This document shows positions 38,292-56,509 of a stretch of DNA of 64,000 bases, in pieces. The position numbers and the translations under genes were made by a program. Position 1 is the first letter of the stretch, and each line of letters starts with the position of its first letter. The DNA lies in assembly GCF_000020785.1 (NCBI RefSeq), contig NC_011126.1:496001-560000 (forward strand), in the 5' to 3' direction. The notes under the pieces are model-generated. The model was given only the letters and a program-made list of their open reading frames with translations, was not told the origin of the DNA and did not search any database. Source of the DNA: Hydrogenobaculum sp. Y04AAS1. Lineage in GTDB: Bacteria; Aquificota; Aquificia; Aquificales; Aquificaceae.

Positions 38292-38519
38292 ATGGCTGAT
38301 AAGGTAATTGACGCAAGAGGAAGCTTTTGCCCGGGGCCTTTGATGGAGCTTATAGCTGCTATAAAGTCAAATCCCGTAGGCACTACCATAGAAGTATTAT
38401 CTACCGACAAGGGATCGGCAAAAGATATACCAGATTGGGTAAAAAAAGTAGGTCATGAAATGGTAGGAGTAGAAGAAAAAGATGGATATTGGTCCATCGT
38501 TGTAAAAAGAACCAAGTAA
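38292..38519 (+). CDS. tusA: TusA-family sulfurtransferase
   Basis: A 75-aa protein with the signature DARGSFCPGPLMEL, whose Cys carries persulfide. VLSTDKGSAKDIPDW and the C-terminal strand complete the fold. It is 10 bp after the DsrE-like gene, and in sulfur oxidisers the two proteins exchange sulfur. Confidence 0.93.
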   Translation: MADKVIDARGSFCPGPLMELIAAIKSNPVGTTIEVLSTDKGSAKDIPDWVKKVGHEMVGVEEKDGYWSIVVKRTK

Positions 38520-38540
38520 GCTAAAAAGGAGGTAAAGCAT

Positions 38541-39686
38541 ATGGCAAAGCACGTTGTAATAGTAGGTGGTGGAGTAGCTGGCACAATAATAGCTAACCTT
38601 TTGGCAAGAGGCTTAAAAGAGGAGCTATCAAAGGCTGAAGTTGTGATAACGATGGTCAGCAAAGATGATAAGCATGTTTACCAACCGGGGTTTTTATATG
38701 TGCTCTTTGATAAAATGAGACCAGATGAGCTTATAAGAGACCAAAGAAGCTTGTTGGCTCCTTCTATCATCTTCCACCACGATACGGTGGTAGGTATAGA
38801 TCCAAAAGCGTGTGAAGTACATACGGAAAAAGGTAAAAAGCTAAAGTATGACTACCTTGTGATAGCCACAGGTTCAAGACCAATGCCAGAGTTAATACCA
38901 GGGCTCAAAGAACACGGAAACATGTTTTACACGTTAGAAAGTGCAACAGAGTTACGAGAAAAACTAAGAAAGTTTGAAAAGGGTAGGATAGCCATAGCTA
39001 TGGGGGTACCTCATAAGTGCCCTGTAGCTCCTTTCGAGGTAACATTTATGTTGGATGATTATTTTAACAAGAAAGGTATTAGGGATAAAGTAGAAATATA
39101 TTATACCTATCCCATAGGTAGAATACACGCGCTAGAGCCAGTAGCCCAGTGGGGTGTCCCAGAGTTTGAAAGAAGAGGCATAAAATACGAAACGCTGTTT
39201 AACATGGAAAAAGTGGAAGCTCATAATGGGTCCGTAGCTGTTCACAGCGCAGAAGGCTCTACCGTTGAATGTGATTTGCTTATTACAATACCTTCTCACA
39301 GGGGAGCCCAAGCTATTATAGATTCTGGTATTTCAAATGATGGTTGGGTACCAACAAATAGACATAGCCTAAAATATGAAGGTTATGAAAACGTTTACGT
39401 GGCTGGAGATACCACAAACTTACCTATTTCGAAAGCAGGTTCTACCGCTCACTTTGAATCTGATGTAGTAGCAGATAACCTTATAGCTGAAATAAAAGAA
39501 GGTCATCCAGCCAGAGACTACGACGGTAAAGTCATGTGCTTTATAGAAACAGGTTTTGATAAAGGTACCTATATACACTTTAACTATACCACTCCGCCAA
39601 GTCCTATGCCACCATCCAAAATGATACACTGGTTGAAGTTAGGATATAACCGTATGTATTGGTTAACTGCAAGAGGTGTCTTGTAA
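38541..39686 (+). CDS. Sulfide:quinone oxidoreductase-like flavoprotein
   Basis: A 381-aa FAD enzyme at the inner face of the membrane. VVIVGGGVAGTIIANLLAR binds FAD and ENVYVAGDTTNLP is the second FAD motif. VPHKCPVAPFEVTFMLDDYF and VMCFIETG carry Cys residues placed like the redox pair of SQR, and the C-terminus is amphipathic as in membrane-bound SQR. It would pass electrons from sulfide to quinone. It is followed by a DUF1641 gene. Confidence 0.87.
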   Translation: MAKHVVIVGGGVAGTIIANLLARGLKEELSKAEVVITMVSKDDKHVYQPGFLYVLFDKMRPDELIRDQRSLLAPSIIFHHDTVVGIDPKACEVHTEKGKKLKYDYLVIATGSRPMPELIPGLKEHGNMFYTLESATELREKLRKFEKGRIAIAMGVPHKCPVAPFEVTFMLDDYFNKKGIRDKVEIYYTYPIGRIHALEPVAQWGVPEFERRGIKYETLFNMEKVEAHNGSVAVHSAEGSTVECDLLITIPSHRGAQAIIDSGISNDGWVPTNRHSLKYEGYENVYVAGDTTNLPISKAGSTAHFESDVVADNLIAEIKEGHPARDYDGKVMCFIETGFDKGTYIHFNYTTPPSPMPPSKMIHWLKLGYNRMYWLTARGVL

Positions 39687-54690: not shown

Positions 54691-54855
54691 AAGAAAGAAT
54701 ATAAATTTAAATTTATTATTAAAAATGATTTAAAACATCCTATCAGCACAGTATAGTTTGATGTATTATAGTTTTAGCGGCATGTGTTTATAATATTAAA
54801 CTAATTTCTACACGATGCGGTATAATAAAAAACTAAACTTAAAAGGAGGTGTAAT
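54691..54855. promoter_or_regulatory. Divergent promoter region Fur / 120-aa gene
   Basis: 165 bp. A TATAAT at 54821-54826 would serve the rightward gene, which has AGGAGGTG before its ATG. A partial PerR-box-like stretch (TTTATAATATTAAAC, about 54787) is present but weak. Confidence 0.4.
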
Positions 54856-55218
54856 ATGCAACTATTTTTGAACCAGCCGTTCACACCACAAAACAATGTG
54901 GTAAGTCAAAAAGTAGTGGGTAATCAGTCCAACAAGTCTGCCACGGTTCACATCTACACAGTCCAAGGTAATACTTTCCAGTACAAGGTATATACCGATG
55001 CTAACAACAACATCACCAAAGTAATAGCTATCTCCTCAAGAGAGTTAGCCCCAGTATCTTACTTTATCCAAAACCCACAAAACTGCCAAAAACAGCTTAT
55101 CACAAGAATACCTCTAAGGATGGCATCCTATGAGTACACCTGTCCCACTGGCACATACAAGTATACTACCTTTGGAACCATAGGTTTTCTAACAACAACA
55201 GCGGAGGTGGTAAGATGA
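54856..55218 (+). CDS. Unknown 120-aa protein upstream of aspartic-protease-like locus
   Basis: It is predicted beta-rich (VHIYTVQGNTFQYKVYTD) with a late Cys pair (NPQNCQ and EYTCPT). It has no clear signal peptide from the ribosome-binding-site-supported ATG, although the Thr/Asn-rich content and Cys pair suggest an exported protein. Its TGA overlaps the next ATG (ATGA). The pairing recalls DUF2844-DUF3443 gene pairs of proteobacteria, but that match is tentative. Confidence 0.55.
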   Translation: MQLFLNQPFTPQNNVVSQKVVGNQSNKSATVHIYTVQGNTFQYKVYTDANNNITKVIAISSRELAPVSYFIQNPQNCQKQLITRIPLRMASYEYTCPTGTYKYTTFGTIGFLTTTAEVVR

Positions 55219-56366
55219 AGAAGGTGAACGCTAAACAACTTTTGGCAGTAGGCGTTATAGGCTTAACCCTTGCTTCCTGTGGCGGTGGAGGCGGAGGTGG
55301 TGGCAGTTCACAAACCCAAACATAAATATCAGCCAATCCAATAGCGATGAATATTTATGCCGGTAGCAGGATTTTATCATCTGCTACTGTACCATCCAAT
55401 ATTCCAGTTATCGTTGTTTATATCAACGGACAACCAGTAAATCTTTTATTTGATACTGGGGCATCAGGTGTTCTTGTCAATCAGGGAACGTTCCCTATAC
55501 CTCAGTCAGCTTACACATCACAAACCTTTTACGGACACTTTGGTGATGGCACAGTTTTCTCAGGCACGGTAGCCAACGTGCAAGTTTGTTTAACGTCGGC
55601 ATCAACAGATTGCATAAATATGCCTGTGGCAGTAAATTCAAACACAAGTGGCACTAATGCTCCATTTCCAACTGGAAATTATATAGTAGGTGACTTTGGA
55701 ATGGACTGCGGGCAAAATACATTTGCATCTTTTGATAGCACAAATATAATTGTCAATACTTTCTGCCCATTGTATTATCTATGGCAACAAAACCAATACT
55801 TTAACGCTTATTCATTAAGTTTCTATCCATTATCTAACACTTACTATGCAACACCAGGCTTTACAACACCAATAGGAAGTATAACGCTTGGAAGTTTTAG
55901 TGCAAACAACTTGATTAGCTATACTGGCAATGGAAATGCTCCATATGTGAATGCCAATTACCCTAACAGTCTTACTTACATAACAATATATGATACTGGA
56001 ACACCGATTATTAGGATGACGAACGACGTATTATCAGCAGAAATACCATACTTCAATATTTATACTGACGGAAACAATTGTAGCGGATCTAACTGGATAC
56101 AAGGCGGTTATCCTATATCTTATTCCATACCACTTGCCAATAGCTCGTCATCTCTTACAATATCATTTACAACAGAACCACCAGCTAATATGTGTGCAAG
56201 CATATTATCAAGTGTATTATCAAACAATCCTGTAATAGTAAAAGACGATACTTTTGATATTGGATCATCTATTTTGGAATGGATGGGACTACCAGAAGTG
56301 ATAAACCACAACTTCATTTGGCTACTTGGTTCTAACGGAATGGTTCAATATATAAGCATCCAATAA
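55215..56366 (+). pseudogene. DUF3443-like lipoprotein, bilobal aspartic-protease fold, interrupted by in-frame TAA
   Basis: A lipoprotein signal (MKKVNAKQLLAVGVIGLTLA then SCGGGG) and an eight-Gly linker run 36 codons to a TAA at 55323-55325. The same frame then reopens and carries 339 residues from an ATG at 55347 with two aspartic-protease signatures, LLFDTGASGVLV and IYDTGTPIIRM, as in DUF3443. One base change explains the stop. The distal ATG lacks a ribosome-binding site and signal peptide, so the gene is probably broken unless the stop is read through. Confidence 0.65.
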
Positions 56367-56374
56367 AATTTAAG

Positions 56375-56397
56375 AGCCTGCTTTATGCAGGCTTTTT
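56375..56397 (+). terminator. Rho-independent terminator
   Basis: AGCCTGC and GCAGGCT form a 7-bp stem around TTTAT, followed by TTTT. It lies 9 nt after the aspartic-protease-like stop. Confidence 0.85.
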
Positions 56398-56509
56398 AAA
56401 CATTAACTCACACATTTTATTGTTTTGGTGTTGATTATAAAAATTGCGCTCACAATACATTTACCCCATACAAAAATAGCCATTTTCATTTATAATATTA
56501 AGATTGCTA
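56398..56509 (+). promoter_or_regulatory. Promoter region of tRNA-Arg
   Basis: AT-rich spacer. TATAAT at 56491-56496 precedes the tRNA by 13 nt. No ORF is seen. Confidence 0.45.

Follow-up and report, generated by a model that had tools for sequence, protein, structure and literature searches.

A gene predicted to encode a secreted aspartic-protease-like lipoprotein in Hydrogenobaculum sp. Y04AAS1 is divided by a single in-frame TAA codon. We propose, with a probability of roughly 0.7, that this stop arose recently by nonsense mutation and inactivated one copy, redundant and specific to this species, of a lipid-anchored, pepsin-like protease. The gene lies in a 64,000-nucleotide stretch of DNA, here called the window (G000:C1:496001-560000), of a genome that consists of a single contig of 1,559,514 bases. 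The features of the locus are collected in Table 1.

Table 1. The interrupted protease gene and its surroundings (positions within the window).
Feature	Position	Strand	Basis or remark
Insert of 1.73 kb (1734 bases), specific to this species, separating fur from tRNA-Arg(CCT)	54739-56472		Congener comparison
Intact partner gene, 120 aa	54856-55218	+	Strong Shine-Dalgarno; no signal peptide by eye; homologues
One unit (plus 3 bp) of the genus-specific 18-bp dispersed repeat, in frame within the partner gene	54931-54951	+	
First piece of the protease gene, 36 aa: lipoprotein signal peptide, lipobox LASC, Gly8 linker	55215-55322	+	Translation; relatives laid out alike
In-frame TAA stop	55323-55325	+	Translation
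Predicted RNA stem-loop, starting 14 nt past the stop and including ATG 55347	55340-55418	+	z -3.83
Second piece of the protease gene: predicted two-DTG aspartic-protease domain, 339 aa from ATG 55347	55347-56366	+	
Terminator-like hairpin and T run, 3' of the protease	56375-56397	+	Stem listed on opposite strand (56393-56375); T run by eye

Translation of positions 55215-56366 yields MKKVNAKQLLAVGVIGLTLASCGGGGGGGGSSQTQT, the TAA and then no further interruption until the final TAA at 56364. The open stretch past the stop comprises 346 codons, or 339 aa if counted from ATG 55347, and this 339-aa part carries the motifs DTGAS (residues 36-40) and DTGTP (residues 216-220). A preliminary description of this DNA had proposed an aspartic-protease-like lipoprotein with a signal peptide, a lipobox cysteine and a Gly linker, interrupted by the TAA at 55323 and continued in the same frame for 339 aa with two DTG motifs. 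The translation bears out both the layout and the interruption, and homologues with an equal layout support the former. The split frame is not a product of chance, because six other homologous copies share the arrangement of lipobox, Gly/Ser linker and two-DTG domain. ATG 55215 overlaps the stop codon of the partner gene as ATGA and has a strong Shine-Dalgarno sequence (duplex energy -10.8). The G+C content of the protease gene is 0.383, compared with 0.376-0.388 in the genes of its relatives.

The preliminary description had also noted that the Gly codons next to the stop may be slip-prone; as a cause of the lesion, slippage did not hold up. The run reads GGCGGTGGAGGCGGAGGTGGTGGC, a mixture of GGN codons without a homopolymer; slippage by whole codons would alter the number of glycines alone and cannot account for an in-frame stop. 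Elsewhere in the window, at 38292-39684, the ORF at 38541 is directly preceded by 75 open codons in the same frame, with one TAA in between.

Seven copies of the protease gene, including that in the window, are present in five Hydrogenobaculum genomes: the window copy and L002 in G000, L004 in G001, L006 in G003, L003 in G004, and both L005 and L007 in G002. The second copy in the genome carrying the window, L002 (G000:C1:1151446-1152432), has no internal stop and, like L003, L004, L006 and L007, is an uninterrupted lipoprotein gene, while L005 is broken by an assembly gap of two Ns (NN) in the linker. The window copy shares 40-44% identity with the others. In all seven copies, the Asp-Thr-Gly of both motifs and four cysteines are invariant. 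The lipobox, which like the signal peptides was read by eye from the translations, is LASC in the window copy and LASC, LTSC, LVSC, MVSC or LSSC in the relatives; together with the conserved cysteines, its presence in all six relatives suggests an exported, disulfide-bonded domain. The two G002 proteases (L005, and L007 at 832-2421) contain about 150 extra residues between Gly linker and protease domain, and this extra part of L007 weakly matches the SslE/AcfD model NF037974 (E 0.0016).

Searches with the 339-aa protein returned matches in 5 of 101 genomes, every one of them Hydrogenobaculum. An alignment of the seven sequences, searched against 136 genomes from 30 genera of the phylum, matched 5 genomes in a single genus, with no protease match in any other genus of this set. 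Collections of plasmids, phages and viral contigs yielded no relatives. The window protein alone likewise found none in a collection of genome contigs, where the seven-copy alignment retrieved four loci, apparently L003, L004, L005 and L007 again. Judged by these matches, the protease family is so far confined to the genus Hydrogenobaculum among the genomes searched.

The split gene and its partner reside in an insert that is specific to this species. The same flanks lie only 22, 22 and 63 bp apart in G003, G001 and G004, respectively, so that the site is empty in three of four congeners; in the fourth, G002, the contig ends there. The protease/partner pair was thus either acquired in this genome or deleted from the other three. 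A mobile element was considered and rejected, as the insert has neither terminal repeats nor a transposase ORF, and the genus holds no other near-identical copy of it.

Of the six other protease copies, five have a homologue of the partner alongside. The partner gene in the window starts with a Shine-Dalgarno duplex energy of -12.9 and precedes the protease gene, whereas the order is protease before partner in L002, L004, L005, L006 and L007. The remaining protease, L003 of G004, has no adjoining partner; a partner fragment is located at the end of another G004 contig. At its N-terminus, the partner has a signal-peptide-like extension in the G002 copies (L007 and L005), while in the window, L002, L004 and L006 it begins directly at the mature part, though the adjoining protease is a predicted lipoprotein. 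More distant partner homologues with signal-peptide-like N-termini occur at L020 (1288-1695) and L023 (1378-1797); in G004 and in the genome carrying the window, distant homologues follow a gene that by eye resembles a D,D-carboxypeptidase gene.

The partner gene also contains a unit of a dispersed 18-bp repeat, ACAAGT[AC]TGCCACGGTTC-like, which is scattered through each of the five Hydrogenobaculum genomes, either singly or in tandem arrays (L068-L113 in G000 and G003). Its 13-base core occurs 70 times in the genome carrying the window and 13, 17, 49 and 33 times in the other four. Among 36 other genomes it matched once, and a reversed control pattern matched none of all 41. At one site within a 367-codon open frame, there are seven units in the genome carrying the window and two in G003 (L081, L104), between flanks that are 96-99.6% identical. 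The copy number of the repeat therefore varies without breaking the frame.

If the stop is a genuine mutation, its consequence can be read from the layout of the intact relatives. Their product would be exported by its lipoprotein signal, then cleaved and lipidated at the lipobox cysteine, so that a Gly/Ser tether would hold the acid protease domain on the outside of the inner membrane. The TAA behind the tether would end translation of the window copy, leaving a 36-aa pre-lipoprotein, of which about 15 residues would remain after cleavage, and no exported protease. Such a loss would be tolerated because L002, the second copy, has no stop. A recent lesion had been among the possibilities initially raised, and a single in-frame TAA in an otherwise uninterrupted frame fits it well. 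The identity of the codon also supports a lesion, TAA being the commonest stop among window ORFs of 200 aa or more (25 of 43).

The claim that the sequence past the stop shows no decay stands only in part. Both DTG motifs and the conserved cysteines are kept, but of 89 columns without variation among the other copies, the window copy retains only 68 (0.76). The other copies scored 0.86-0.97 in this test, from which L006 was omitted as a near copy of L002. Decay was discounted as the cause of this low retention, because the unbroken partner has a similarly long branch in its tree (0.69, compared with 0.79 for the protease), which indicates that the divergence affects both genes of the pair instead of stemming from decay after the lesion. 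On these trees, the low retention reflects an old paralogue more than decay. If the sequence has evolved neutrally, the absence of a second stop over 1017 bases limits the change since the lesion to at most 0.065-0.09 substitutions per site (95% bound), or to about 0.02 if frameshifts are included at an assumed rate of 0.1 per substitution. Set beside the difference of about 4.5% from G003 on the fur-ftsY side of the insert, this bound means that the lesion is probably young relative to the split from G003.

Some observations count against a lesion. One is that the stop is the sole sign of decay: the partner gene upstream is intact, and so are the two start signals and the terminator-like hairpin. 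Another is the strong hairpin just past the stop, which is present in the window copy alone. None of 200 shuffles of 55340-55418 folds as well, and the strongest structure in a scan of 71 windows along both genes falls at 55336 (z -4.36). At the equivalent place, five relatives have no hairpin (z 0.2 to 1.3), and a fold that takes in the sequence before the stop (55215-55360) is not unusual (z -0.16). The hairpin coincides with extra residues of the window protein and may have arisen as a side effect of a short palindromic insertion.

The intactness of everything around the lone stop would also be expected if the deposited sequence were wrong at this codon and the gene encoded an ordinary lipid-anchored protease. 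Substitution-type errors are rare in finished genomes, however, and this genome is a finished single contig, which makes such an error unlikely. It is described as a complete JGI genome (PMC2613243). If the stop is real, translation could restart at ATG 55347, 21 nt past it and ahead of the whole conserved domain. The first piece would then be a short lipopeptide and the 339-aa protease domain would be cytoplasmic, as for shewasin D, which is reported to have no signal peptide and to accumulate in the cytoplasm (PMC4814920); the partner protein likewise has no signal peptide by eye. A Shine-Dalgarno sequence is absent ahead of ATG 55347 (+1.2, compared with -10.8 at ATG 55215). This does not exclude initiation, because many genes in the window begin without one, the five examples being ftsY, fur, arsR, glgB and trxB. 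Its burial in the strong predicted hairpin and the evidence of the lipobox and cysteines for an exported domain nevertheless speak against it, and we regard a restart as distinctly improbable.

The hairpin could also be taken as an aid to partial readthrough, which would give a little full-length lipoprotein. Its rank as the strongest structure in the scan, its absence from the relatives and the frame that is still open past the stop would agree with this. Yet the hairpin was examined after the fact and falls on residues that are extra in the window protein, and there is no orthologue in which its covariation could be followed. TAA is, moreover, the tightest stop codon. A tRNA with a TTA anticodon (an ochre suppressor) was not found in the genome: of four pattern hits, ARAGORN calls a single tRNA, tRNA-Lys(ttt), and recoding by a suppressor tRNA was accordingly rejected. 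Readthrough, which the preliminary description had entertained, thus has nothing positive in its favour beyond the hairpin 3' of the stop, and we consider it very improbable indeed. It is doubtful, too, that the stop acts as a switch instead of being damage. Such a switch would set a tethered lipopeptide apart from a pepsin-like protease, the latter being produced either by restart at ATG 55347, as a cytoplasmic enzyme, or by hairpin-assisted readthrough, as a rare surface enzyme, beside a cytoplasmic partner that is translated first.

As lesions go, the recent nonsense mutation that we favour is commonplace, a single stop in a gene of which the genome has a spare. Of more lasting interest is the family, a predicted lipid-anchored aspartic protease, apparently with two lobes and accompanied by a small partner gene, represented in all five Hydrogenobaculum genomes. 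Hydrogenobaculum sp. Y04AAS1 is described as an acidophile that grows at or below pH 3.0 (PMC2613243), and an acid protease outside the inner membrane would suit this hot-spring bacterium. A surface enzyme of this kind would be physiologically sensible and is directly testable.

Profile searches place the protein near several aspartic protease families. In the first DTG region, the window copy matches PF13650 (E 8.9e-5) and PF13975 (E 4.4e-5) under their gathering scores, with 23.6 bits for PF13650 against a cut-off of 24.3 bits. Three of five relatives scanned (L003, L004 and L007) exceed the PF13650 cut-off, while L002 and L006 do not. The N-terminal lobe of L002, L004 and L006 gives weak matches to PF20729 (best E 2e-5), and L002 weakly matches NF038019 (E 2.4e-5), all of them under the cut-offs (at best 24.5 against 33 bits). 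A profile search against PDB sequences found retroviral proteases (E 2e-4). PF00026 had no match in the five Hydrogenobaculum genomes, but 14 control genomes gave none either, and it was absent from the hmmscan output for the domains at E up to 1. AlphaFold2 models of the window copy and L004, built from the seven-sequence alignment, are poor (mean pLDDT 40.6 and 42.2). Foldseek searches with these low-confidence models returned pepsin-fold proteases almost exclusively among the top 50 (E 1.3e-5 and 1e-4), with the pepsin match spanning about half of the chain in most top rows; because of the quality of the models, these matches are only supportive. The protein has two D[TS]G motifs in a single chain of about 330 aa and, read from its sequence, is pepsin-like in layout, short of proven A1 membership.

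The combination of a Gly-rich lipoprotein and a small neighbour suggested the DUF3443/DUF2844 pair, a candidate that was rejected: PF11925 had no match in the five genomes at E up to 10, in a search where it matched just one of 14 control genomes, beneath the cut-off. A literature search for DUF3443 or DUF2844 found nothing, and one for Hydrogenobaculum with "aspartic protease" turned up tardigrade proteomics as its sole subject.

According to a report in which shewasin D is cytoplasmic, pepsin-like enzymes are rare among bacteria, family A1 genes having been shown in only seven bacterial species at that time (PMC4814920). The Hydrogenobaculum protease shares with the bacterial shewasins A and D of the pepsin-like MEROPS family A1 a single chain of about 330 aa and two DTG motifs. 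The shewasins are described as having no signal peptide (PMC4814920), whereas the intact Hydrogenobaculum copies are predicted lipoproteins. Its likeness to the retropepsin-like Asp_protease_2 and gag-asp_proteas families (PF13650 and PF13975) lies in the match to the first DTG region; these models span one lobe of about 90 residues, in contrast to the two putative DTG lobes per chain here. A weak, sub-cut-off likeness, for PF20729 over the N-terminal lobe, connects it to the PecA/PE-PGRS C-terminal aspartic protease of mycobacteria (PF20729 and NF038019). Compared with these, the Hydrogenobaculum protease has no visible PE domain and would carry a lipid anchor in its place.
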